Shown piece by piece: positions 8,509 through 23,345 of a DNA stretch of 64,000 nucleotides (the stretch's first letter is position 1; each line of letters opens with the position of its first letter). The DNA lies in contig NZ_JAJFZN010000002.1 of NCBI RefSeq assembly GCF_020731145.1, positions 310,001-374,000 of the forward strand, in the 5' to 3' direction. The position numbers were made by a program, and so were the translations under genes. The DNA is from Sneathiella sp. HT1-7. GTDB lineage: Bacteria > Pseudomonadota > Alphaproteobacteria > Sneathiellales > Sneathiellaceae. The notes beneath the pieces are model-generated. The model did no database searches. It was not told where the DNA came from and worked only from the letters and a program-made list of their open reading frames with translations.

Positions 8509-9273
8509 ATGGGTCAGTTATCAGATCAGGTTATTATTTTAACAGGTGCCAGTCGGGGTATAGGTGCCGCTGCGGCTTTGGAGCTTGCTGCAAATGGTGC
8601 GAAACTCTGTCTGAGTGCGCGCTCCGCCAGCTCTTGCAGCGGTGTCCTTGAGCAGATCAAGAATTCGGGCGGTGAGGCGTTCGCCGCGAGTTGTGATGTG
8701 TCCGACTATGCAGCTGTTGAAAAAATGACGGCGGAAACGATGGATCGCTTTGGTCGGATCGATGCCTTGGTCAATAACGCTGGCATCGTCGACCCGATTG
8801 GTGCGATCGCGACGAGCGATCCTGACGAATGGGCGCAAAATATTTCGGTTAATCTCGTGGGTGTCTATAACGGGATACGCGCTGTTCTTCCGCATTTCTT
8901 GAAACAGAGTTCTGGGGTGATTATCAACATCAGTTCCGGCGCGGCGCATGGTCCGATGGACGGATGGAGTGCATACTGTTCAGGAAAGGCCGGCGTTTAT
9001 ATGATGACCCGTGCAACAGCGTTGGAGGCTGGCGAAAAGGGTGTTCGTGTATATGGGTTTGCCCCGGGAATCGTCGATACGGACATGCAGGGGGTGATCC
9101 GCGCCTCGGGTATCAATTCGGTCAGTCAAATTCCGCGCGAGAATCTTGCACCGGCTGATGAACCTGCGAAGGCCATTGCCTGGTTGTGCAGTGACGCGGC
9201 CAGTGATCTGGCCGGTCAGGAACTATCGATCCGTGACGAGACACTCCGCAAGAGGATTGGACTTTCTGTCTAA
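8509..9273 (+). CDS. SDR family NAD(P)-dependent oxidoreductase
   Basis: A classical short-chain dehydrogenase/reductase of 254 aa with a Rossmann fold. The cofactor-binding motif TGASRGIG is at residues ~13-20, the NNAG motif at ~87-90, the catalytic Ser in NISSGAA at ~144, and the catalytic Tyr/Lys pair in YCSGK at ~159-163. The substrate cannot be read from sequence; general annotation as a 3-oxoacyl-ACP-reductase-like SDR would be a guess. The start ATG at 8509 gives the expected family N-terminus. The next gene begins 10 bases after the stop, which suggests cotranscription although the products are unrelated. Confidence 0.92.
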   Translation: MGQLSDQVIILTGASRGIGAAAALELAANGAKLCLSARSASSCSGVLEQIKNSGGEAFAASCDVSDYAAVEKMTAETMDRFGRIDALVNNAGIVDPIGAIATSDPDEWAQNISVNLVGVYNGIRAVLPHFLKQSSGVIINISSGAAHGPMDGWSAYCSGKAGVYMMTRATALEAGEKGVRVYGFAPGIVDTDMQGVIRASGINSVSQIPRENLAPADEPAKAIAWLCSDAASDLAGQELSIRDETLRKRIGLSV

Positions 9274-9283
9274 GCCCGCGTCC

Positions 9284-10120
9284 ATGAGGCAAAATGCCCG
9301 ATCTGTTTATGCAAGCCTTAAAAACGCGGTTTGCATTTGCCTCATCTTCTCTATCGCGTTCGTCCTGGTTCCGGAGTTCGTTCGCGCCGAAATGTCTGTC
9401 CCGGATAAGGTGCTTAAGGTTCCGGGAATTAAAGGCGATGATAATCGGGTGCGTGTCAAGATCTCGGATTATCCCTGGCGTATGATCGGACGACTAAACC
9501 GAAGCGGCAGTCATTGCACGGGTATCCTCGTGGGGCCGGTATCGGTACTGACAGCGGCCCATTGTTTTTGGGATAATCGGCGTCAACAATGGTCGGTGCC
9601 AAGCGCGTTTCATTTCGTGCTTGGCTATGAGAAGGGGGACGTGAAGGCACATTCCAGGATCGAGCGGTTTGAATTGCCGGATGGGCGGCAACCTACTTCT
9701 CTTGATAAAAAGTCGACGCTGGAAAATGATTGGGCAATTGCAACATTAAAAAACCCACTTGGGGAGGAATTCGGCTTTGCGCCTGTAGCCGCTTTTAATC
9801 TTCGCGAATTAAAAGATGTTCTCGCCAGCGGAGCTGTTGTTGTTCAGGCTGGCTATAGCCGGGATATTGCACATATGTTGACCGCAGATAAAGATTGCGA
9901 GATCAGCAGTATCCAGCAAAGTAAATCCGGCTTGCTGTTGCGGCACCAATGTGATGCAACGCAGGGCGATTCGGGCTCTCCTCTTTTTCTGTATGACGGA
10001 AAGTCGTACTCACTTATCGGAATTCATGTTGCGACAATGTCGAATTCCAAGGGGATGAACGATGGAATTGCGGTGTCCTTGGACATGTTCAGGAACCGTG
10101 TGTCACAACTGCAAAAATAA
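9284..10120 (+). CDS. Secreted trypsin-like serine protease (S1 family)
   Basis: A 278-aa protein with an N-terminal signal peptide (hydrophobic VCICLIFSIAFVLVPEF, cleavage probably after VRA near residue 35) and a chymotrypsin-fold protease domain. The triad is visible: His in TAAHC (~86), Asp in ENDWAIA (~148) and Ser in QGDSGSP (~230). The frame is open upstream into the SDR gene, but the ATG at 9284 gives a proper signal peptide. It should act in the periplasm or outside the cell. It lies next to a type I secretion and LapG-like region but has its own Sec signal, so a functional link is only suggested by position. Four or more Cys residues could form disulfides. Confidence 0.9.
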   Translation: MRQNARSVYASLKNAVCICLIFSIAFVLVPEFVRAEMSVPDKVLKVPGIKGDDNRVRVKISDYPWRMIGRLNRSGSHCTGILVGPVSVLTAAHCFWDNRRQQWSVPSAFHFVLGYEKGDVKAHSRIERFELPDGRQPTSLDKKSTLENDWAIATLKNPLGEEFGFAPVAAFNLRELKDVLASGAVVVQAGYSRDIAHMLTADKDCEISSIQQSKSGLLLRHQCDATQGDSGSPLFLYDGKSYSLIGIHVATMSNSKGMNDGIAVSLDMFRNRVSQLQK

Positions 10121-10593: not shown

Positions 10594-12660
10594 TTAGCCC
10601 TTCTTGCTTTTCTCGATATTTGCCTTGAAGTCGGCACCGGTTTCAGTCTCGAAAAAGCGCATCATCGCATCAACAACTTCTGGGTCGTATTTTTCCGGAT
10701 TGAGTTTAAACACGCGAAGGGCCTCGTCAACACTGATAGCCTCGCGGTAAGAACGCGGTGAAATTCGTGCAATCAGGATATCCGCCATCCCGAGAATGCG
10801 GGCCGGCATATCGATTTCATCCTTTGTTAGGCCTTTTGGATAACCGGTCCCGTCAAGAAGCTCGTTAATTTGGGTGACGGCATCAAGGACTTCTTTTTCC
10901 ACATCGGCGTTACTTAGAATCTTTTCGGCGATCAATACATGTTTCTGCATCACTTTCTGTTCTTTTTCACTCAGCCGTACATCCTTTTCCCTAATCTCGC
11001 GCGGGATGGATATTTTACCGATCTGTGAAAGATGCGCACCGGTGTTGATTATTTTGATCATTTCAGGAGACAGCCCCAGCTCCACTGAGATGTGATTGGC
11101 AATCTGCGCCATTCGAATGGAATGATCTGACAGATAAGGGTCATTAGCTTCCAGCATCTGGGCAAGAACAGTAATGGCTTTGCGATCCATTTCCTCTTTC
11201 CGGCGCTGGAATTTCACATAGTCGGTGATGTCACTGCTGACTGTGACAATGCCAAGGAATGCTCCGTCTTCATTGAGAAAGCGGGATTTAGCGATCCTCA
11301 GAATCCGCGTTCCGTCCCGCCTTTCAATTTCGACAAAGGCGTTGACCGTCTGTTCCGTCGCGATGGCCTTGCGATCATGTTCAGCAAGATCTCGGGCGGC
11401 CTTTTCGCCAAACAACTCACGATCCGTTTTGCCGGGAATGGATCGAAGCGGGTAATCAGCGACCCTGGCGAGGGATGGATTCGCGTAGATGTAACGCCCT
11501 TCCGGGTCGGTTAGGCCGATCAGTTCATCTATTGTGTTGTTGATACTTCCCAGCAACCGTCGTTGTGTGTTTATCTGGTCTGCAAATTCCTTGTACTGTT
11601 GGGCGAGTGCGCGGGCGCTTTGTCCCTTTAGGGTCAGCCAGATCACGACGAGAACGGTAAAGACAATAATGAGGAAGCTGAACGCGAGGCCAATGACAAA
11701 CATCGCATAGGTCCGAAGCGGCGCCAATGCTTTATCGCTGGACACCTGCTGAAAGACCACAAAGTGAGTGTTCGGAACCAGCGCCCCGGAGGAAAAGACA
11801 CTGTTGCTGTTTTCTCGAGCTATTTCCTGAAAGTTTGTTGCGCCGGGCGCAAGCTGCGCATCTTCCTGAGGTGCAATAAATGGAGGTTTTAGCGGGAACA
11901 GCTCATAATATTTTCCATCCGCTTCCTGATAAAGCTTAGTCACATCCGGCTGATTATTATAGAGCGGTGCGTTCAATAGTTCTGAAAGCGCATTTGATGC
12001 CGGGACGGTGAGTAGCAGAGCCCCGACTATGACATCATTACCGCTGCTGTTGGGTTCGCGTTGCGCCGCATGAATTGGCAGGACGAAGTCAAAAACAAGC
12101 CCGGCATCGCTCGCACGAAGAGGTAGGAAAGTTACTTCTGTTTTCTCATACTGCGCTTGCGCGGTTGAGCGTTGATTGTCCGTTAGGGACGGAGCATTTC
12201 CGGAAGCAAGATAAGCACGGCCATCTTTACCGATAAGGTATGCTCCAATAAGTTCCGCCTGATTGACGAAATTTGAGAACGCGTTCTGCATGTAAGGCAG
12301 TTGATCATTCAGTGATTTTGGGAGCTTGCCGTCACCCACAAAATTAATTTCTGTGGCAAACAGCTTGAAAAGTTCATTTTCTGCGATCCGGTTGGCGTCT
12401 TCGACTTCACCCGCAAGCCAGGTTTCCATCACTTGTGCCTTGCCGGCCGCGCTCACATCAAGGCGTTTTTGAAGCTCCCCGACTAATTCCTGTTTGCGAG
12501 ACTCTATTGCGTAGTCACACAGAAAGTATCCCAGGATCGCAAAGACGATGAGAAAAAACGCGGCAATCTTCCAGGGGGCTTTGCGAAAAAGGTTGCTATC
12601 GCTTGGCGCACGGTCGGAAAGAAATGAATTTAGTTCAAGCTTGGCTGTTGCATCAGTCAT
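10594..12660 (-). CDS. Membrane sensor with Cache-like periplasmic domain, PAS and degenerate HD-GYP domain
   Basis: A 688-aa inner-membrane protein. TM1 is at ~30-50, followed by a ~270-residue periplasmic region resembling a Cache sensor, TM2 at ~320-345, a PAS domain at ~370-490 and an HD-GYP-like domain at ~500-670. The HD-GYP scaffold is clear (NDPYLSDHS, IGKISIP, DGTGYPKGL), but the metal-binding residues are gone: HDxGK reads SQIGK (11011-11040) and the HHE of HHExxDGTGYP reads QIN-E (about 10842-10880). It is therefore unlikely to hydrolyse c-di-GMP and may be a receptor. The ATG at 12660 is chosen over 12681 because AGGGAG lies 7 bases upstream; the start overlaps the LapG-like gene by 8 bases. 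The topology equals that of LapD, the c-di-GMP receptor that controls LapG. Confidence 0.88.
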   Translation of the reverse strand: MTDATAKLELNSFLSDRAPSDSNLFRKAPWKIAAFFLIVFAILGYFLCDYAIESRKQELVGELQKRLDVSAAGKAQVMETWLAGEVEDANRIAENELFKLFATEINFVGDGKLPKSLNDQLPYMQNAFSNFVNQAELIGAYLIGKDGRAYLASGNAPSLTDNQRSTAQAQYEKTEVTFLPLRASDAGLVFDFVLPIHAAQREPNSSGNDVIVGALLLTVPASNALSELLNAPLYNNQPDVTKLYQEADGKYYELFPLKPPFIAPQEDAQLAPGATNFQEIARENSNSVFSSGALVPNTHFVVFQQVSSDKALAPLRTYAMFVIGLAFSFLIIVFTVLVVIWLTLKGQSARALAQQYKEFADQINTQRRLLGSINNTIDELIGLTDPEGRYIYANPSLARVADYPLRSIPGKTDRELFGEKAARDLAEHDRKAIATEQTVNAFVEIERRDGTRILRIAKSRFLNEDGAFLGIVTVSSDITDYVKFQRRKEEMDRKAITVLAQMLEANDPYLSDHSIRMAQIANHISVELGLSPEMIKIINTGAHLSQIGKISIPREIREKDVRLSEKEQKVMQKHVLIAEKILSNADVEKEVLDAVTQINELLDGTGYPKGLTKDEIDMPARILGMADILIARISPRSYREAISVDEALRVFKLNPEKYDPEVVDAMMRFFETETGADFKANIEKSKKG

Positions 12661-13372
12661 TTTGGTTGCTCCCTGCGGCATCTTGCGCGGTCAGGAAATC
12701 AAGGGGAATATGGGCCCATCTCCTATTTTCATTAACGGAGTAGAACGGGACGTAATAGTTGACGAGGCGTTCTTCCAGTATGGTATCGTTCAGGTTGTCG
12801 AGAACATAGCGTTTGCCCCGGCGCTCGACGCTTAATACGGCATGTGCCTTGTTGCGCAGGACATCGTTGGCGATAACAATACGCATGGCATCGGGGTCAA
12901 AACCGAGCTCTTTAAGGCTGACATATTTCATGATGGCGAAATCTCTTGATCCGCCGCCATTTGAAATAAACTCAAGCGGCGACGCCCAATGGCTGTCAGA
13001 TAATGCCCCTGCGTCGTCGGGAATAAATTTCCAGCCATTTAGAAAACTGTTCAGTTCCTGCATCTGGATGCGCTTAGGAGAATTTTGTAGTTCTGCGATT
13101 TTCGTGCGCCACAACGTCATCTGTTGCGACTCACAATCCTCGATGCGGGCATCGCATTTGGCGGCAGCATTTGCGAGCTGGGGAAAACTCGCTTTAACTT
13201 TGAGCCAGAGGGGTAGGGCTGCCAGATTATCTGATGAAATTTCGACTAAGCCGAAAAGGCCCTTTTCCGTCACGTCCGCGTGAGCGGTCGCACCGGTCAC
13301 TGGGCCTAAAAGGAAAAGACCCGTTAGCAGAAAAGCGGTGGCGTGCTTTATCATTCTATTGTGTATCATCAC
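12653..13372 (-). CDS. LapG-like transglutaminase-like protein lacking the catalytic cysteine (predicted pseudo-protease)
   Basis: A 239-aa protein of the bacterial transglutaminase-like cysteine peptidase family (DUF920, peptidase C93), with a signal peptide at the N-terminus (hydrophobic ~10-30, cleavage after AHA) and thus periplasmic. LapG of this family cleaves type I secreted adhesins near their N-terminus. The family core GDCEDFA(I/V)xKY reads GGSRDFAIMKY here, so the catalytic Cys is Ser (residue 142, TCA codon at 12947-12949) and the flanking acidic residues, reported as calcium ligands in LapG, are Gly and Arg. His (NKAHAVL) and Asp (YVLDNLN) of the triad remain. Its ATG overlaps the HlyD stop (ATGA) and its end overlaps the HD-GYP gene, so the three are translationally coupled. 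Likely a non-catalytic binding partner or decoy; slow Ser-based activity cannot be excluded. Confidence 0.9.
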   Translation of the reverse strand: MMIHNRMIKHATAFLLTGLFLLGPVTGATAHADVTEKGLFGLVEISSDNLAALPLWLKVKASFPQLANAAAKCDARIEDCESQQMTLWRTKIAELQNSPKRIQMQELNSFLNGWKFIPDDAGALSDSHWASPLEFISNGGGSRDFAIMKYVSLKELGFDPDAMRIVIANDVLRNKAHAVLSVERRGKRYVLDNLNDTILEERLVNYYVPFYSVNENRRWAHIPLDFLTAQDAAGSNQND

Positions 13373-14697
13373 CGTTCCCTCAATGCCGTATCCCGTGTTT
13401 TCAGGATAGGTTTCAGGATATAGTCCAGCACTGTTTTATGGCCTGTGAGGATATCGACAGAGGCGACCATGCCGGGAATAATTGGATAGGAGTTTTCCCC
13501 GCGTTTGAGGAAATTCTGGTTTGTACGAACGATGATCTGATAATAGCTTTCGCCGGATTTCTCATCAACAATCGTATCGGCACTGATCCGTTCAAGCTTG
13601 GCTGGCAATCCGCCATAAATTGAGTAGTCATAAGCCGTGATCTTTACTGTGGCTTCTTGTCCTGGCCGCAAAAAAGCGATGTCGGCCGGGCGAATATTCG
13701 CTTCCACCAAAAGCGTATCGTCGATTGGCACTATTTCAATAATATCCTGACCCGGTTTGACGACGCCGCCAATGGTCTGGATTTTAACGTCCTTTACTTC
13801 ACCAGTTACAGACGAGCGCACATCCGTCCGTGCAACACGATCCTTGACACCGAGAATGGCCTGACGAGCCGCCTCATACTCCGCACGTGTCTGGCTCAGT
13901 TCTTGTGATGCAGTACTTTTGAAACTGAGAATTTTTTCCTCAATTCGCTGATTAGCTTCCTTAAGCGCGCCTTCAACACGTGGCTTGGAAAGCTCGGATG
14001 CAGAAATCTGCCCTTTCAGGTCGTTAATTTCCCGGCGTAGCTTGAGAGATTCCACCTTTGGGACAATCCCTTTCTTGACGAGAGGTGCCGTAATTTCCAT
14101 TTCTTCATTGGCGAGTCCGAGGCTGGCACGGAGCTGTCTCAGGCGACCATTAATCTCTGCAATTTCTTGGTTTCGCTGTTGCGCCTGTTGCCGCAAGATT
14201 TGTATTTGCGATTGGAGTTCAGCCTGCCGCGCATTATACAGATTTAGCTCGCGCACGGAAATGTCCTTACGCTCCGCCAGAAGTTCAGCAGGGAAGGTAA
14301 GGGGTTCACCCGTGGCCTCCGCTTCAAGACGGGCGATACGCCCCATCAGGTTAAGATAATTGGATTCGATTTCTCCCGCGCGGGAGGAAAAGCCGGTATC
14401 GTCAATGCGTAGAAGAATCTGGCCCTTTTCGACGATATCGCCTTCATGTACCAGCAATTCTCTGAGGATGCCGCCTTCCAGATTCTGGATAATTTGTACT
14501 TGGCTGGACGGGATGACCTTGCCGTCGCCGCGGGTGACTTCATCCAGAACCGCATTTTTTGCCCAGATGAACCCGACAACGAAAAAGGCGATTACACCAA
14601 ACAGCAGGAGGAAAGAACGCGGATGCGGGCCTTGTACTCTCGCGGCTACGACGTCCGACGCGAAATCTGAGTCATTCCATTTTAAATTGTCTGCCAT
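13369..14697 (-). CDS. HlyD-family type I secretion membrane fusion protein (LapC-like)
   Basis: The periplasmic adaptor of a type I secretion system, 442 aa. It has a short cytoplasmic N-terminus, one TM segment (~30-50, FLLLFGVIAFFVVGFIWA), a first lipoyl half-motif (IIQNLEGGILRELLVHEGDIVEKGQ), a long coiled-coil region (~120-290, rich in Gln, Glu, Arg and Leu), and the second lipoyl half and beta-barrel ending with the HlyD C-terminal signature (IIPGMVASVDILTGHKTVLDYILKPI). It bridges the ABC exporter and the TolC protein. It starts 2 bases after the ABC gene stop and overlaps the next gene by 4 bases, so it is within one operon. Confidence 0.95.
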   Translation of the reverse strand: MADNLKWNDSDFASDVVAARVQGPHPRSFLLLFGVIAFFVVGFIWAKNAVLDEVTRGDGKVIPSSQVQIIQNLEGGILRELLVHEGDIVEKGQILLRIDDTGFSSRAGEIESNYLNLMGRIARLEAEATGEPLTFPAELLAERKDISVRELNLYNARQAELQSQIQILRQQAQQRNQEIAEINGRLRQLRASLGLANEEMEITAPLVKKGIVPKVESLKLRREINDLKGQISASELSKPRVEGALKEANQRIEEKILSFKSTASQELSQTRAEYEAARQAILGVKDRVARTDVRSSVTGEVKDVKIQTIGGVVKPGQDIIEIVPIDDTLLVEANIRPADIAFLRPGQEATVKITAYDYSIYGGLPAKLERISADTIVDEKSGESYYQIIVRTNQNFLKRGENSYPIIPGMVASVDILTGHKTVLDYILKPILKTRDTALRER

Positions 14698-14699
14698 AG

Positions 14700-17084
14700 T
14701 CAGTCCTCCGGTCCGTTTCGCTGTGGTTTTGACACGGTTGCCGAAACAGTTTTGGAGGTTGAGTTTCCACTCTGACCGAGTTTCAGAATTTCATCGCGCG
14801 GGCCATCCGCCGCGATCTTGCCATTTCCAAGGACAATGATCCGATCAACCAGCGAGAAGAGGGAGGTGCGATGCGTCACGAGAAGCAAGGTCTTTCCTTG
14901 AATATAGTCTTGAAGACGGCTAATCAGCCGTCGCTCTGAATTGATGTCCATGGCACTTGTCGGTTCATCGAGCATCAGGATAGGCGGATTGGGCAGGAAA
15001 GCGCGGGCAAGACCAATTGTTTGCCGTTGCCCTCCGGACATGGTCGCGCCTTTTTCTCCAACATGCAGGTCATAGCCATGTGGATGCCGAGAAATAAAAT
15101 CATGTACACCGGAAAGCTTCGCGGCATTCAGGATCATTTCATCGTCGGCACGCGGATGCCCCAGGATGATGTTTTGCCTAACAGAGGCCTGGAACAGGGT
15201 GATATCCTGCATGACGCTGCCAATGCTCCGGCGGATATCGGAAGGGTCGATTTGCCGGATATCCGTGCCGTCAATCAGTACGGCGCCTTCATCGGGCTCA
15301 TAGAGATTGATTAGCAGGCGCGAAATCGTTGTCTTCCCTGATCCAACGGGCCCGATAATTCCGACTTTCTCACCCGCCCGTATCTTGAATGATACATTGT
15401 CGAGCGCAGGGATGTCGGTGCCCGGATATTTGAAAGTTACATCCTTGAATTCGATATCACCCTGGATATTCGGGCGGCTGAGTTGACGTTTTTCCGCGCC
15501 CCGTTCAACCGGGAGGGACATAATATGATTAAGTCCCTTCAAGGCGACGATAGCTTGATTGAGGCGGGTAAGCAGCCCGGCGATCTGGCCAAGCGGTGCC
15601 ATTGTCCGCCCTGTTAAAATGGTGCAAGCGATCAAGGCGCCTACTGTAATAGTCGAGTCCGGTTCTCCCATTAACATGACGCCATAGACGACCACGCCGA
15701 CGGTTACAAGTTGCATGGCAGCAGCGGAAAGATTGATGCCGAGGCCGGCGAAGAAGCGCGCGGCAACGCTTGTTTCAGCGGTCTTCCCGACGAAGCGTTC
15801 CCATTCCTTCTGCATATGGCCTTCAATTCCCATGCTTTTAACGGTGTCGAGGGCGGAGATTGTTTCAACGATAACCCCATGCTTCTGGGCGGCTTCTTCC
15901 GACGTTTTGGAAACGGCGCGGCGCATGGGCCATTGCAGACACAGCCCGATAAGCAGAACAACAGGGACGGCAACAGCGGGAATGATAAAAAGCGGGCCAC
16001 CGATCAGGTAAATGATAAACAGGAAAATCGCGAGGAAGGGTAGATCGACGAGCGCCGTTACGGTAACGGACGTGAAGAAATCCCGCAATGTTTCAAACTC
16101 TCGCAGGTGATTGGCAAACGCGCCAGCAGACGCAGGACGGGCCTTTACCTGAAGGTTGAGAACTTGCTCGAATATTCGGCTGGACAGCAGAATGTCAGCC
16201 CGTTTACCGGCATTGTCGACAAAATACGACCTCAGTGATTTAAGTAACAGATCGAAGCCGATCACGGTGATTACACCAATTGCCAGCACCCATAATGTTT
16301 CGATCGCCCGGTTGGGAACGACCCTGTCATAAACATTCATAATAAAAAGGGGGCTTGCCAGGGCGAAGCTGTTGATCAGAAAGGCGGCGATAATGACCTG
16401 AATATATGTCGGCCAGAATTGCCACATGGTCCCCCAAAACCATGAGCCGGGCCTATCCTGTAACTTTTCATCCTTATCAACGCGGTACTTGAAACTTGGT
16501 CGGGTCAGAATAGCGTACCCGGCATATTCAGCGTCCAGTTCTGTGAGCGGCAGGCTGTCGGAGCCTTCCCCTGTTTCCGGGAAGATAACTTTGGCTTTCC
16601 TGTCTTCCCGCGAGAGCAGGATACAGGCGCGCCGGTCATTGAGCAGGACGACGCAAGGTAGAACGGCTTCCGGTATCTTATCGAGATTTCGATTGGTGAT
16701 GCGGGCACTGATGCCGACGCGTTCCGCGGCCCGGACAAATAGCGCCGGTGTTAATTTGTTGTCTTCAAGTGGGAGGCCGTAGGCTAGCGCATCCGGAGTG
16801 CGTGGATCATCGAAAAGCTTAGTCAAAGCCGCGAGGCAGCCAAGCAGGGGATCCTGATCAGAGCGCGTGATTTCGGAAAGGTTGACCTGCCAGTTTCCCT
16901 TACTTTTGATTTTTGTCCGAAGGGCAGCCTCTGTGGTCTCTAGCTTACTTGCTGCTGCAGTCGGCTTACCTGTTTTCAATTTGGTGTCCCTTGTCTTTTT
17001 GTTTCCGGCTTTTGTGACGAATAGATCGTCCGTTGTGTTGACATCGAGCCTCGCGGATTTGCGTGAATTTTCGCTCACCGGCAT
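14700..17084 (-). CDS. Type I secretion ABC exporter with degenerate C39 domain (LapB-like)
   Basis: A 794-aa inner-membrane exporter. A poorly conserved, charged N-terminal ~75 residues is followed by a C39-like domain (~75-205) in which the motif reads DPLLGCLAAL; the catalytic Cys position is not conserved, as in CLD-type exporters of RTX proteins. The ABC transmembrane domain spans ~220-510, and the ATPase domain ~550-770 has Walker A GPVGSGKTT, signature MSGGQRQ and Walker B ILMLDEP. This architecture matches LapB and related adhesin exporters. The ATG at 17084 has GAGGG unusually close, so translation may begin at a slightly different point. First gene of the operon that continues with HlyD, the LapG-like protein and the HD-GYP-like protein. 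Confidence 0.95.
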   Translation of the reverse strand: MPVSENSRKSARLDVNTTDDLFVTKAGNKKTRDTKLKTGKPTAAASKLETTEAALRTKIKSKGNWQVNLSEITRSDQDPLLGCLAALTKLFDDPRTPDALAYGLPLEDNKLTPALFVRAAERVGISARITNRNLDKIPEAVLPCVVLLNDRRACILLSREDRKAKVIFPETGEGSDSLPLTELDAEYAGYAILTRPSFKYRVDKDEKLQDRPGSWFWGTMWQFWPTYIQVIIAAFLINSFALASPLFIMNVYDRVVPNRAIETLWVLAIGVITVIGFDLLLKSLRSYFVDNAGKRADILLSSRIFEQVLNLQVKARPASAGAFANHLREFETLRDFFTSVTVTALVDLPFLAIFLFIIYLIGGPLFIIPAVAVPVVLLIGLCLQWPMRRAVSKTSEEAAQKHGVIVETISALDTVKSMGIEGHMQKEWERFVGKTAETSVAARFFAGLGINLSAAAMQLVTVGVVVYGVMLMGEPDSTITVGALIACTILTGRTMAPLGQIAGLLTRLNQAIVALKGLNHIMSLPVERGAEKRQLSRPNIQGDIEFKDVTFKYPGTDIPALDNVSFKIRAGEKVGIIGPVGSGKTTISRLLINLYEPDEGAVLIDGTDIRQIDPSDIRRSIGSVMQDITLFQASVRQNIILGHPRADDEMILNAAKLSGVHDFISRHPHGYDLHVGEKGATMSGGQRQTIGLARAFLPNPPILMLDEPTSAMDINSERRLISRLQDYIQGKTLLLVTHRTSLFSLVDRIIVLGNGKIAADGPRDEILKLGQSGNSTSKTVSATVSKPQRNGPED

Positions 17085-17860: not shown

Positions 17861-19207
17861 ATGAAGCTTAGAAACCGTGCGGGGAAGACAATGAATGTAC
17901 TTTCCGCCAGTGTTCTAACGGCGGTCTTCGGAAGTTATATAGCGGTGGGGGCCGCGCAATCCGAAACATTGGTGGATGCAGTCCAGCAAACGGTTTCGAC
18001 CTATCCGGAAATCGCCGAGGCTTCGGCAAATCGCCGCGCGATTGATCAGGAATTAAGACAGGCGGAAGGACTTTATCTTCCGTCGCTCGATCTTGAAGCG
18101 GGCATTGGTTATGAGTGGACTGATACAGTTACCATTGATAACGAAGATTTGCGCCGCACGGAATCGAGCCTTCTGCTCGTGCAGACCCTTTACGATGGTG
18201 GGTTTCGTAGCGCAGAAGTAGACCGGCAGGGAAATCGTGTCGATAGTGCTGCGTATCGGGTCCGGGAACGGGCCGAAGCCATCGCTCTTGACGCGGTGCG
18301 GTCCTATCTTGATACGCTTCGCAGTCAACAAATTGTTGAACTGGCGAAGGAAAATGTCGAAAAACATCGCCGGACACTGAATGAAATCCAGGACAGGGTG
18401 AGAGCCGGACAAAGCGGTATTGGTGATGACCAGCAGGCGCTGGCGCGTCTTGCTGCAGCTGAAGACACTCTCGTTGAAACTTTGCGCGCGCAGGACGATG
18501 CGGAAATTACCTATCGGAGAGTTGTGGGTGTACAGCCGGTAAATCTCGAACTTCCTGACTTCAGCGACAGCGTTCTTCCCGACAATATTGATGATATCGT
18601 GGCGATTGCGCTGGAAGGTAATCCGGACATTATGTTCGCTTCTTCAGATATCAAAACGTCTGATGCGGAAATTCGGGCGACTCAGGCAAGCTACTATCCG
18701 ACAGTTAATCTGGAGGTAGGAGGCTCTGCGGATAATAATCTCGATGGGGTTGAAGGCCATAACGACGATTTATTGGCGATGCTTCGGTTGCGCTACAACC
18801 TCTATAGAGGGGGGATCGACGAAGGCCGTGAGAAGGAAGCGTTAGCACGCAAAGCAGAGACGGAGCAGCGCAAACGCCGTTATGAACGCCTCGTAGAAGA
18901 GGAAGTTCGACGCAGCTGGAGTTCACTCGCCCGTTCGGAAGCGCGTTCGGAAGTTCTCGCAGCGGCTGTTGTTGCCAATACTGAGGTTGCCTCGACTTAC
19001 AAACAGGAATTTGAAATCGGGCAGCGTGATCTGCTGGATCTGCTGGATGCGGATAATGAACTGTTTAACTCCCGGACGTCGCTGGTGACGGTGGAGTATT
19101 CGGTTAGGTTTGCAAAATATCGGTTGCTTGCCACTATGGGCCGGTTGAACTCGACACTCGGTGTGACCCTGCCCGCGGAAGCAACGCCGATGGAGAAAAA
19201 AGGCTAA
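17861..19207 (+). CDS. TolC-family outer membrane channel of type I secretion
   Basis: An outer-membrane efflux protein of 448 aa with a signal peptide (~1-32, cleavage after GAAQS or nearby). Two OEP repeats (~35-215 and ~235-435) form the alpha-helical barrel. Typical TolC/LapE (AggA) features are the N-terminal LVDAVQQTVSTYPEI, TLYDGGFRSAEVDRQGNRVDSAAYRV, LRYNLYRGGIDEGREKEA and EFEIGQRDLLDLLDADNELF. It has a strong ribosome binding site (GGGAGAGGGGT directly before the ATG). It diverges from the ABC-HlyD operon and very likely completes that secretion system. An intrinsic terminator follows its stop. Confidence 0.95.
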   Translation: MKLRNRAGKTMNVLSASVLTAVFGSYIAVGAAQSETLVDAVQQTVSTYPEIAEASANRRAIDQELRQAEGLYLPSLDLEAGIGYEWTDTVTIDNEDLRRTESSLLLVQTLYDGGFRSAEVDRQGNRVDSAAYRVRERAEAIALDAVRSYLDTLRSQQIVELAKENVEKHRRTLNEIQDRVRAGQSGIGDDQQALARLAAAEDTLVETLRAQDDAEITYRRVVGVQPVNLELPDFSDSVLPDNIDDIVAIALEGNPDIMFASSDIKTSDAEIRATQASYYPTVNLEVGGSADNNLDGVEGHNDDLLAMLRLRYNLYRGGIDEGREKEALARKAETEQRKRRYERLVEEEVRRSWSSLARSEARSEVLAAAVVANTEVASTYKQEFEIGQRDLLDLLDADNELFNSRTSLVTVEYSVRFAKYRLLATMGRLNSTLGVTLPAEATPMEKKG

Positions 19208-19275: not shown

Positions 19276-19938
19276 CTAGGGCTTGTGACGCCACCATCCA
19301 ATCTCATTGACAGAATATATCGGTCGGTAATGTCGGATGCGAGTGGCATCAACGACTTGTCCGATTTGATTGTCGAGCACTAGATTTTTGCCTTTATAAT
19401 TCACAACCAGAATTGCATGGGCGATGCCGAGATTAACATCCTGCAGAACGACAATTTTCATGTCCTTCGCTGACCACCCGAGGGCGCGCAGCGTAAAATA
19501 CTTGACGATCGCGTAGTCTTCGCAATCACCGAACCGGGCAAAGAATTCTTTAGGAATTTCCCAATAATCACGCACTCCCCAATTGATGGGATCAAGAATA
19601 TAGCGAAAAAGATTCATGTGCCGATTGATTTTTTCAAGCTGCTTTTCTTTCGGCAGTGACCGCCATTCCTCTATCAGGGCGCGCCATTTCTGATGGGCGC
19701 AGCGATTATATTTTCCTGAAACGCAATCGCCAGGCCTATCCTTGTAGGTTGCGAGCACCTTTCGCCATTTTGGAAAGGGTTTGAGGCCGGAATAGGGGGT
19801 TGCCTTATAACCGAACAGGTCACCTGCCTTTGCGTCAGCGAGAGATGGTGCTGCAATAACGCAGCAGGCAAGAATAAGTGCTGCGCATATCGTGGCAAAT
19901 CCGGGTCTTGTTCCTGTCACCGCGTTGGTTCCTGCCAT
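19276..19938 (-). CDS. LapG-like periplasmic cysteine protease (transglutaminase-like, C93), triad intact
   Basis: A 220-aa member of the bacterial transglutaminase-like cysteine peptidase family. It has a signal peptide (hydrophobic ~14-34, cleavage after LADA) and acts in the periplasm. The triad is complete: Cys139 in RFGDCEDYAIVKY (codon 19522-19524), His in GIAHAIL and Asp in LVLDNQ. LapG homologues cut the retention module of type I secreted adhesins and release them from the cell when c-di-GMP is low. A further Cys pair (GDCVSGKYNRC, ~70-80) may form a disulfide. The gene diverges from a membrane HD-GYP-like gene and converges on the TolC gene, which places it within the secretion locus. 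It is probably the active protease of the pair. Confidence 0.93.
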   Translation of the reverse strand: MAGTNAVTGTRPGFATICAALILACCVIAAPSLADAKAGDLFGYKATPYSGLKPFPKWRKVLATYKDRPGDCVSGKYNRCAHQKWRALIEEWRSLPKEKQLEKINRHMNLFRYILDPINWGVRDYWEIPKEFFARFGDCEDYAIVKYFTLRALGWSAKDMKIVVLQDVNLGIAHAILVVNYKGKNLVLDNQIGQVVDATRIRHYRPIYSVNEIGWWRHKP

Positions 19939-20121
19939 CTGGTTAAAAAAGCCTCCTGTTCAGGCGCATTATGGGCAACAAATCATTAACAAAGACTGAG
20001 CAGGACATCTAATGTCATTGCGTCGTTAAGTAATTTTTGGGTAATTTAGATCGGTGATTTACCTATCTTAAAGAGTTTCAAGGCATTCTGCCGTACAGTG
20101 AAATATATAACCGGGGCATTT

Positions 20122-22257
20122 ATGTCGGATAATCAATTAGATGGTACGGAAAAGAAAAGCACCTACAAAGCGCTCTCCTTAGGCGTTTTGCTGCTTATGG
20201 CTGTCGTCGTTGCCGGCATTTGGGGCACTTTCAAATTTGTCGAGGAACAGCGTTCGCGCGACCTCCGAAACTGGGAGGTTCGCCTTGGTATTGTCGCGGA
20301 TAGCCGCGCGGCAAGCGTCGATGACTGGCTGCGCAAGCAGGAACAGGCTATTGGCACTCTCGCGAATAATGCGTCTTTACAGGTGTATCTAACCCAGTTG
20401 GTTATTGAGACGGCAGAGAATGGCAACTCTATCGCTGAAGTGCCGGAGGCGGGTTATCTCATTAATCTACTGAATAATCAGGCTGTTATCAGCGGATTTT
20501 GGGAGCCGGAGGAGCCGCAAATCCGTGCAAATGTGGCGCGGCCCGGTCGGGCAGGCATCGGGCTTACGGACGCAACAGGAAAGCTTCTGGTCTCCAGCGG
20601 AAATATGCCCCCAATGAACCCGACAATACGGGCCGCCATGGCGAAAGCCGGGGATGGTGAGCCTGCTCTGATCGATCTTTATGAGGGGATTAATGGCGAT
20701 CCGACCATGGGCTTTGTCTGGCCGATTTATGCGGTGCAGGATGAAGGGAGCCCAAAGGATATTATTGGATATGTTGTTGGTCTTCGGACGGTGGAAACCT
20801 CACTATTTCCGCTATTGTTCCAACCGGGTGATACATTGCAGACGGCAGAAAATTATCTTGTCCGCAAGGATGGGAAGCTCGTGCAATATATCTCTCCGCT
20901 GGCGGATGGCACGCTCGCTCTTGCCCGCAAGCTAAGCGCACAGAATGATCTGGCTGCGGCATTCGTAATCGAAAATCCGGGAAGTTTTGAACTTGCCTCC
21001 AATTATCTCGGGAGCAAGGTTCTCGTAACGGGGCGTGCGTTGACGGCTGCGCCTTGGTTCCTTGTTCGAACAGTCTCGGAACAGGAAGCGTTGGCCGAAA
21101 CCGATCAGCGCCTTTCAACGATGCTCGGCATCTTTATATTGCTGATTTTTGCAGTCGCAGGAACGGTGGTTGCCGTCTGGCGGCATGGCACCTCCCTTCG
21201 CGCGGCGGAGCTAGCGGTGCGCTATAAGGGCATGGCGGAGCAGTTGAGAGAGCGGAGCGAATTTCTGAAAATTGTGACCGATCAGCAGCCAACGTCTATT
21301 GCTGTTTTCGATGCAGAGGATAAATACACATTTGCGAATAGTGTCGCCGCCGAAGACGTGGAGATATCGCAAGATGAAATGATTGGCAAGAAAGCCGCGA
21401 GTGTTCTTGGGCCTGAGCAGGCACGGGAAATCATCGAGATGACAAATCTCGTGCGTCAGGACTATGAACCTCGTTCGTTGATTAGCCGTATAAAGGCGTC
21501 GGAGGAAAGTGCAGCGGATCGGGTGATCAAGTCAGATTTTGTGCCCCTGCGATCAGCGCGGGTGAACAGCAAGGAAGTTCTCACTGTATTTCAGGATATT
21601 TCTGATGTTGTAGTTGCACAGGAGCGTCGCGAGTCCGTATTGCGTACACTTGTTTCAACATTGGTGGCTTTTGTGGATCGCCGCGACCCTTATTCCGCAG
21701 ATCAATCCCGTCGGGTCGCGAAGGTTGCGGTGGCAATTGCTGAAGAAATGGGCGCGCCAGATGAACTGGTGCGGACAGTTGATATCGCGGGTAACCTGAT
21801 GAATATCGGCAAGATTCTCGTTTCGCCAGAAATTCTGACTAAGACGAAGAACCTGACTAAGAAGGAAATGGAAATCATTCGGAACAGTCTGGTCGCCAGT
21901 GCGGATCTCCTGGATGAAGTTGACTTTGATTTGCCGGTTGCCGCCACATTGCGCCAATTGCAGGAAAATTTTGACGGCAGTGGCCAACCAAACGGCCTGG
22001 TCGGCATGGAGATCAGTGAACCAGCTCGGATTATTGCCGTCGCCAATGCCTTTGTCGGCATGGTCAGCCCGCGCGCTTACCGGAGCGCACTAAGCTTCAG
22101 CGCGGCAGTGAAGAATCTTTTAGAAGATGCCGATACGCGGTATGACCGACGTATGGTCAGCGCTCTGATCAATTATCTCGAGAACCGGGGAGGCCGCGAG
22201 AGCTGGAAATACTTCTCTGAGAATGTAGAGAAAGACTCTACTGAGGGCGGAGGGTAA
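20122..22257 (+). CDS. Second membrane sensor with Cache-like domain, PAS and degenerate HD-GYP domain
   Basis: A 711-aa inner-membrane protein with the same architecture as the 10594-12660 product: TM1 (~18-38), a periplasmic Cache-like region (~40-330), TM2 (~335-358), PAS (~385-500) and an HD-GYP-like domain (~505-690). The catalytic residues are even more eroded: the first His is Gln (SADQSRRVA), HDxGK reads MNIGK (21793-21816) and HHExxDGxGYP reads LQENFDGSGQP (from about 21955). Hydrolysis of c-di-GMP is not expected; a receptor role is inferred. The ATG at 20122 has CCGGGG upstream and is preferred to a GTG at 20098. It diverges from the intact LapG-like gene, 180 bases apart, so the two likely share a control region. 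Confidence 0.88.
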   Translation: MSDNQLDGTEKKSTYKALSLGVLLLMAVVVAGIWGTFKFVEEQRSRDLRNWEVRLGIVADSRAASVDDWLRKQEQAIGTLANNASLQVYLTQLVIETAENGNSIAEVPEAGYLINLLNNQAVISGFWEPEEPQIRANVARPGRAGIGLTDATGKLLVSSGNMPPMNPTIRAAMAKAGDGEPALIDLYEGINGDPTMGFVWPIYAVQDEGSPKDIIGYVVGLRTVETSLFPLLFQPGDTLQTAENYLVRKDGKLVQYISPLADGTLALARKLSAQNDLAAAFVIENPGSFELASNYLGSKVLVTGRALTAAPWFLVRTVSEQEALAETDQRLSTMLGIFILLIFAVAGTVVAVWRHGTSLRAAELAVRYKGMAEQLRERSEFLKIVTDQQPTSIAVFDAEDKYTFANSVAAEDVEISQDEMIGKKAASVLGPEQAREIIEMTNLVRQDYEPRSLISRIKASEESAADRVIKSDFVPLRSARVNSKEVLTVFQDISDVVVAQERRESVLRTLVSTLVAFVDRRDPYSADQSRRVAKVAVAIAEEMGAPDELVRTVDIAGNLMNIGKILVSPEILTKTKNLTKKEMEIIRNSLVASADLLDEVDFDLPVAATLRQLQENFDGSGQPNGLVGMEISEPARIIAVANAFVGMVSPRAYRSALSFSAAVKNLLEDADTRYDRRMVSALINYLENRGGRESWKYFSENVEKDSTEGGG

Positions 22258-22271
22258 TTCCTCTAATTCCT

Positions 22272-23345
22272 TTAAAGGAGACCTGTGGCCTGTAGGGCCG
22301 CCGGGCCAGTCAGGATGAGCTTGACCACTTCGCTTTGTCGGCTGGTGTCGGTTTTGCGGAAGACTTGTCTCAGTTGAGAGCGAACTGTGTGCATGCTGAC
22401 CCCCCATTGCTCTGCGAGGTCATCAAGCTTATGACCATTGGTCAGGCCAAGCGCCAAGCGCCCTTCCGCTGGTGTCAGGCCATATAGCTTACAAATTGAT
22501 TCTACAGAAAGCTCAACTGGTTCAGCCGGGTCAGAGACAAATAGAACGGCACCCTTTCCGGCGGCCCCGGTTCCGATAGGGGCGACCATGACATTCAACG
22601 GATAGTCACTTTCCATCCGGGTCAGGGAAATGGCGAAATCGCCTTCTGATTTGCTGTCGCCGCCGGGGGAGAGTGTGTCGGACAACAGCTTGGCGAGTGC
22701 CCGGCTTTCACCTGGCAGTGTTGCACGGCATATCCGGTCAGTACCAACAACCAGACCGTCACCCTTTTCCAGATAGCGTTTTGCCTTTCCATTGAAGAAA
22801 AGGATTTTCGTATCAGCTGTTACCAGGATAACCCCGATTGGAAGCCTGTTCAGTACGGCCGTCGCAGAATCAAGAAGTGGTGCCGATTCTGCGCTTTGCC
22901 GATGACCCTGATGGCGCTGAATGGCGTTGAGCAAGCAGCGCGACATGCCATCTGTCGAGAGTTGACTTTTGATGAGGTAGTCCTGCGCGCCCAACCGAAT
23001 AGCCTCACGGCCGATATTTTCGTTATCATCCGTGAGCACAACAATCGGTGTGTGGGGAGTTTTTTCTCCAAGGAGCGATACCGCTTTGATCCTGTCTTCC
23101 TGAGTTTCTGTCAGATCAAGAATAATGACTTCGCCCTGCTGACCGTGACCGGCTTTCACATAACTGTCGACAGAAGCAATATGTTCGAACGAAAACTTTG
23201 CCGTCGACGCATTGGACAGCAACCAACCTAATTGTTGGGCATCCTCTTCCTTTTGTCCAATAAAGTGAACTGTTGCAGTAGAGTTTTTGTCCATTGAATA
23301 TGGTTTTCCGACTTGTTTATTCGGTTTCCTTGACATGACCGCCAA
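22272..23345 (-). CDS. Response regulator with REC, PAS-like middle and LuxR-type HTH
   Basis: A 357-aa regulator. The REC domain (~25-140) keeps the phospho-acceptor Asp (VIILDLTE), the Thr (VVLTDD) and the Lys (YLIKSQ). The middle (~155-285) resembles a PAS fold (LPIGVILVTADTKILFFN). A LuxR/GerE HTH lies at ~290-345 (LTPAEGRLALGL, SMHTVRSQLRQVFRKT). It should bind DNA when phosphorylated by an unlinked histidine kinase. It could also start at the ATG at 23294 (MDKNSTATV). It converges on the second HD-GYP-like gene with only 14 bases between, so it may regulate the secretion locus; that is inference from position. Confidence 0.9.
   Translation of the reverse strand: MAVMSRKPNKQVGKPYSMDKNSTATVHFIGQKEEDAQQLGWLLSNASTAKFSFEHIASVDSYVKAGHGQQGEVIILDLTETQEDRIKAVSLLGEKTPHTPIVVLTDDNENIGREAIRLGAQDYLIKSQLSTDGMSRCLLNAIQRHQGHRQSAESAPLLDSATAVLNRLPIGVILVTADTKILFFNGKAKRYLEKGDGLVVGTDRICRATLPGESRALAKLLSDTLSPGGDSKSEGDFAISLTRMESDYPLNVMVAPIGTGAAGKGAVLFVSDPAEPVELSVESICKLYGLTPAEGRLALGLTNGHKLDDLAEQWGVSMHTVRSQLRQVFRKTDTSRQSEVVKLILTGPAALQATGLL

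Follow-up and report, generated by a model that had tools for sequence, protein, structure and literature searches.

The window analyzed here, a 64,000-nucleotide stretch of the marine bacterium Sneathiella sp. HT1-7 (contig NZ_JAJFZN010000002.1, positions 310,001 to 374,000), carries two LapG-type proteases of the Peptidase_C93 family, each paired with its own non-catalytic HD-GYP receptor. On balance, we read this locus as a doubled alphaproteobacterial version of the Dvh switch, in which one pair (LapG2 and Rec2) would be a working module for adhesin release and the other (LapG1 and Rec1) an order-wide pseudoprotease module. LapG2 (19276-19938, minus strand) is a C93 (BTLCP) protease of periplasmic type, and Rec2 (20122-22257, plus strand) is a dCache-PAS-HD-GYP receptor without metal ligands, with MN in place of HD and LQ in place of HH. 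LapG1 (12653-13372, minus strand) is a C93 pseudoprotease in which Ser142 replaces the catalytic Cys, and Gly and Arg replace the Asp and Glu of the calcium site; Rec1 (10594-12681, minus strand) is a DvhD-like dCache-PAS-HD-GYP receptor with SQ for HD. The first-pass annotation had proposed one dead and one live protease, each with its own degenerate receptor, and this arrangement turned out to be fixed across the order.

LapG2 (220 amino acids) scores 65.8 bits against the Peptidase_C93 profile (cut-off 27) and matches the structure of Legionella pneumophila LapG (4fgo) with an E-value of 2e-23. Cys139, His174, and Asp189 are invariant across the LapG2 alignment, and the calcium-site residues D138 and E140 are intact; in all 22 genomes of the order where the protein was read, the D-C-E-D stretch occurs together with the His and Asp, i.e., triad and calcium site are complete. 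The active-looking protease with a Cys139-His-Asp triad claimed from the letters alone is thus borne out. Between two halves of the genus, LapG2 differs at a number of sites, one of which, Gly171, lies close to the catalytic His. We regard it as quite probable that release is carried out by LapG2 under the control of Rec2.

The genes for LapG2 and Rec2 lie head to head. Rec2 starts at the ATG at 20122 and not at the GTG at 20098, its Met being nearly invariant in the alignment of relatives, so that the start codons are separated by 183 bp (19939-20121), in good agreement with the common control region of about 180 bp that had been predicted. Across 11 such intergenic regions we found two conserved blocks, TTATGG.CAA.AAAT..TTAA and ATTTACCTATCTTAAAG, and the conserved motifs lie at 19969-19989 and about 20057-20073 of the window. 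The latter block, ATTTACCTATCTTAAAG, is present with small changes in 10 of the 11 regions, the eleventh being incomplete; a pattern search of the whole genome found exactly one occurrence, at the LapG2-Rec2 locus, and one single-mismatch site elsewhere.

LapG1 is recognizably a member of the same family, with 38.9 bits against the same profile and cut-off. C93 matches were found in 25 of 25 genomes of the order search, and LapG1 was present and readable in 24 (loci L003-L012 overlap in assemblies with G001-G024 and were not counted as independent). The catalytic Cys is absent from all 24, with Ser in 23 and Pro in one, a sister genus (G001), so that we reject a sequencing error or a single-strain event as its cause. 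Both calcium-site residues are kept in 14 of the 24 and at least one is lost in the other 10, while the His and Asp are mostly kept (G007 also lacks the His). We compared 36 conserved C93 positions between 20 LapG1 proteins (the 24 minus the partial or gapped rows G014, G015, G017, and G024) and 79 Cys-bearing relatives: most positions are kept in all 20, and the losses cluster at the Cys, the calcium residues, and a handful of sites within 116-128. The structure model of LapG1 has the LapG fold (mean predicted local distance difference test score, pLDDT, of 84), with L. pneumophila LapG as the best PDB match, and the synteny around the gene is tight across the order. Over the pairs that yielded a value, with synonymous sites near or beyond saturation in many of them, the ratio of nonsynonymous to synonymous substitution rates (dN/dS) was 0.04-0.09 for LapG1, 0.04-0.09 likewise for LapG2, and 0.02-0.04 for Rec2. 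LapG1 is under purifying selection and is not decaying, and its order-wide conservation without the Cys suggests that the dead enzyme serves as a regulator. Genome G010 of the genus has a weak C93 match that is its third (L062, G010:C16:152073).

Both receptors have the domain order Cache-PAS-HD_5, with Cache scores that do not reach the Pfam cut-off (for the dCache of Rec2, 28 bits where 45 are required) and, in Rec2, 117 bits for the HD_5 profile. Their best structure matches are DvhD entries (9rc0/9rbz; E = 1.5e-45 for Rec1 and 3.4e-40 for Rec2), and the dCache of Rec1 also matches that of DvhD (9rc2; E = 3e-16). The HD metal ligands are gone in both, neither fits the HD + HH ligand pattern of HD-GYP phosphodiesterases, and, judged by these residues, Rec1 and Rec2 look like receptors rather than enzymes. 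Rec1 was read in 23 genomes of the order, and its HD dyad is SQ in every one; that of Rec2 is MN in 18 and LN in one of the 19 rows with a readable HD domain, a count that omits G005 and G023, whose rows lack the HD part. Elsewhere in the class, the dyad is absent from 7 of 7 Rec1-type and 14 of 14 Rec2-type receptors with the HD domain read (G218_L175, typed as Rec1 at a low score and devoid of an HD-GYP domain, is left out). Random erosion of Rec2 was rejected on this ground, since the MN dyad is the norm of its receptor type, none of the 14 class relatives having kept HD. The motifs QSRR, MNIGK, and LQENFDGSGQP reported for Rec2 are all present; its description as the most eroded receptor stands only in details relative to Rec1, which lacks the same metal ligands (SQ), and the MN/LN dyad is normal in the class. 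Two frames of the order deviate, namely a Rec1 with an in-frame stop (L053, G011) and a short Rec2 (L047, G005), each an assembly error or a real loss.

The two pairs have different relatives in the class. Matches to the LapG1 model occur in 74 of 289 class genomes, a set with four members of the genus, one of them G000. Outside the order, 58 C93 frames in 44 genomes were read, taken from the better matches, and the catalytic Cys is present in 57; the exception, in G202, has Asp. A Rec2-type receptor lies beside the protease in 28 stretches outside the order, head to head in 25 of them, and there are seven Rec1-type pairs in six genomes, five adjoined by HlyD. In the tree, the Rec1-linked proteases, LapG1 included, split from the rest with a support of 100/97, several rows being long branches. 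By the frames read, the pair types, and the tree together, two old pair types exist, and the exporter-linked protease, active-looking outside the order, ceased to be an enzyme at the base of the sampled order or earlier. The dead LapG of G202, from another family of the class, is a separate case: it belongs to a second, orphan pair of Rec1 type (L139, Cys to Asp), in a genome that also has an active-looking exporter-operon pair (L138). A C93 protein in G147 (L176) keeps the Cys and has Gln for the His.

Candidate substrates were sought in the rest of the genome, and two exported proteins combine VWA domains, type I secretion features, and LapG-type site motifs. One, of 880 amino acids, starts at C4:250661 and precedes the window by about 59 kb, whereas the other, of 1346 amino acids, is on C7; after the N-terminal module, the motifs of this genome read NPEAG and SPEAG. 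With the first 154 residues of the 880-residue protein as a genus query, matches were found in 19 of 24 genomes. In the 30 loci read, a motif occupies one constant position ahead of GGGA.F, reading APAAG in 17, P[E/Q]AG in 10, and PASG in one, and is missing from two short frames. APAAG is limited to nine genomes, all from the same half of the genus, and the other half, this genome included, has P[E/Q]AG or PASG (L069:12662-15304 and L070:4047-8087 with loci L078-L107); in the protease tree of a subset of genomes, the two halves are clades. The difference in motif and in LapG2 between the halves is a correlation resting on one split only. The retention_LapA profile, on which the candidates do not exceed the cut-off, was rejected as a substrate finder, having picked mostly FecR-like proteins; G000 has, in tandem, two similar secreted-looking proteins with weak matches to it (L064/L065, G000:C1:201454-202451).

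A link to a type I secreted protein had been suggested from the outset and is supported by these motifs and by the structure of the locus. An ABC exporter with an N-terminal C39-like domain (14700-17084, minus strand) is followed by an HlyD-type membrane fusion protein (13369-14697, minus strand), which overlaps the start of LapG1. Because the genes abut or overlap, ABC-HlyD-LapG1-Rec1 is probably a single operon, headed by the exporter. A TolC-type outer membrane channel is encoded at 17861-19207 on the plus strand, and profile matches place exporter and channel in the type I kind. The assembly (3.83 Mb) has two C93 proteins, two HD_5 domains (only those of Rec1 and Rec2), and ten GGDEF domains. 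A LapD system was rejected, as no match to the LapD-type periplasmic domain LapD_MoxY_N was found across the genome at E<=0.1. The closest relatives of Rec2 are from Sneathiella metagenome-assembled genomes and type strains, consistent with a Sneathiella-like alphaproteobacterial host.

Next to the receptors lie two further frames. The frame at 22272-23345, which encodes a receiver-like protein whose end weakly matches the LuxR type, is convergent with Rec2 and is kept as its neighbor in relatives. On the opposite strand from Rec1, an adjoining frame (9146-10120) contains TAAHC and GDSGSP, which we take to resemble the motifs of chymotrypsin-type serine proteases.

In the switch we propose, the dead HD-GYP domain of Rec2 would bind cyclic diguanylate (c-di-GMP) when the messenger is abundant, and LapG2 would be held back in the periplasm; a drop in c-di-GMP would set LapG2 free to cut the exported adhesins right after their N-terminal retention module, at APAAG or P[E/Q]AG, and the cut adhesins would leave the TolC channel. 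LapG1 and Rec1, produced with the exporter, would have lost the cutting activity, and LapG1 would have been kept for binding, most likely to the retention module or site of the adhesin or to a receptor, whereby it would guard the adhesin or tune LapG2. That LapG1 regulates adhesin release in some way, as a partner that only binds, has in our estimate about an even chance. An opposition between the two pairs, as first suggested, is a plausible conjecture, and the two-layer control and the receptor-protease interactions are likewise putative. More tentatively, and with a probability well short of even, the whole order might use LapG1, which would have a c-di-GMP receptor of its own and is encoded with the exporter, to antagonize the live protease: released by its receptor, LapG1 would cover the adhesin site or a receptor, two receptors of one messenger would set opposite outputs, and the cleavage site would have changed together with the erosion of LapG1.

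Several observations weigh against the doubled switch. Rec1 and Rec2 both retain the equivalents of three DvhD ligand contacts, L577, R650, and Y652, across the order alignment (with one unreadable letter in G012), but each receptor lacks others. Binding of c-di-GMP is likely and not assured, because the K582 equivalent is mostly gone in both (Met in the Rec2 of this genome), the Rec2 rows outside the sister genus have lost Y621 (Gln here) while Rec1 keeps it, and M646, kept in the Rec2 of this genome, is Arg in Rec1. The structure model of Rec2 is too poor for a fold search (mean pLDDT of 58). The adhesin site of this genome has Glu for the first Ala of [T/A/P]AAG, so that cleavage may be weak or altered. 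Lastly, G171 has both pair types with the Cys of both proteases intact, so a dead protease is not a necessary consequence of carrying two pairs.

Four other explanations share part of this evidence. LapG1 could be a receptor decoy that docks on Rec1 or Rec2 instead of LapG2 and so sets the level of free LapG2, leaving the adhesin untouched. The retained structural core would suit such a role, as would residues 74-91 (around SQQMTLWRTKI), which are strongly conserved in LapG1 and mostly absent from Cys-bearing exporter-linked relatives; moreover, in an AlphaFold 3 model described in PMC13090378, the face of DvhG that binds DvhD lies behind the active site. However, each protease here has its own receptor, and the conservation of 74-91 may partly reflect relatedness; we think the decoy rather unlikely. 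We are similarly doubtful that LapG2 and Rec2 act on another envelope substrate, the adhesins not being their targets. The pair is mostly away from exporter genes in the class stretches read, the adhesin motif here has drifted to PEAG, and there is a precedent in Caulobacter HvyA, which controls capsulation through an unknown target (excerpts of PMC4241560). Against this, the partner of LapG2 is a DvhD-type receptor, and in the nine APAAG genomes LapG1 is dead and LapG2 is, in most, the only Cys-bearing C93 protein seen, which implies that the kept site needs LapG2.

Whether LapG1 has any function, or even an enzymatic one, bears on the same residues. The stepwise erosion of its active site, joined in some members of the genus by that of the calcium site, together with the interrupted Rec1 frame of G011, could be those of a functionless relic; a gene readable in 24 of 25 order genomes, in tight synteny and with the dN/dS given above, makes a relic very unlikely. 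A LapG1 that is still an enzyme, with Ser replacing Cys, would account for the mostly kept His and Asp and for the calcium-site residues that flank the Ser in 14 of 24 genomes. We hold it to be extremely improbable, given the Pro of the sister genus, the missing His of G007, and the loss of at least one calcium residue in 10 of 24; likewise, HvyA mutants C192S and H226Q are non-functional, according to the excerpts of PMC4241560. The doubled switch, with LapG2 as its cutting arm, remains our preferred reading.

The closest known system is DvhD/DvhG of Desulfovibrio (D. vulgaris Dvh operon; 9rc0, 9rbz, 9rc2), in which, as reported in PMC13090378 (Nat Commun 2026), the HD-GYP receptor is catalytically dead, has SQ for the HD dyad, binds c-di-GMP without hydrolyzing it, and controls a LapG-type protease. 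Receptor type and logic are published there, and the alphaproteobacterial pairs may already be counted in its class-level distribution (Fig. 9b). The present locus extends the predicted range of the Dvh-type HD-GYP switch from sulfate reducers to the Alphaproteobacteria, in which the divergent protease-receptor pair is common. It also offers a natural example, spanning an order, of a LapG protease that has become a pseudoenzyme next to a live paralogue. We found no report of an inactive LapG among the matches listed in the open-licence PMC literature, and the lapG1/lapG2 system makes possible a direct test of whether dead proteases regulate adhesin release.

Shared with DvhD/DvhG are the dCache-PAS-HD-GYP receptor without metal ligands (SQ in both DvhD and Rec1), the LapG-type protease adjoining it, type I exporter genes, and candidate adhesins with an N-terminal module followed by a putative site that resembles [T/A/P]AAG, a motif which known LapG proteins and DvhG cut between the alanines and in which AA to RR blocks cutting (excerpts of PMC13090378 and PMC6890996). 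Here, in contrast, the pair is doubled, the dead protease belongs to the exporter-operon copy, the live protease is in a divergent pair with the other receptor type (MN/LN dyad), and the sites of this genome are PEAG. Pseudomonas LapD/LapG has in common with the logic predicted here a dead c-di-GMP-binding receptor, a periplasmic Cys protease, and an adhesin of a type I secretion system; unlike LapD, a GGDEF-EAL protein, the receptor here is HD-GYP, and the genome lacks LapD_MoxY_N at the threshold given above. Caulobacter HvyA is likewise an alphaproteobacterial BTLCP with Cys-His-Asp, but it restricts capsulation, is regulated over the cell cycle through its synthesis and abundance, and, within the excerpted text of PMC4241560, is mentioned with no HD-GYP partner, whereas LapG2 and LapG1 each stand beside one.
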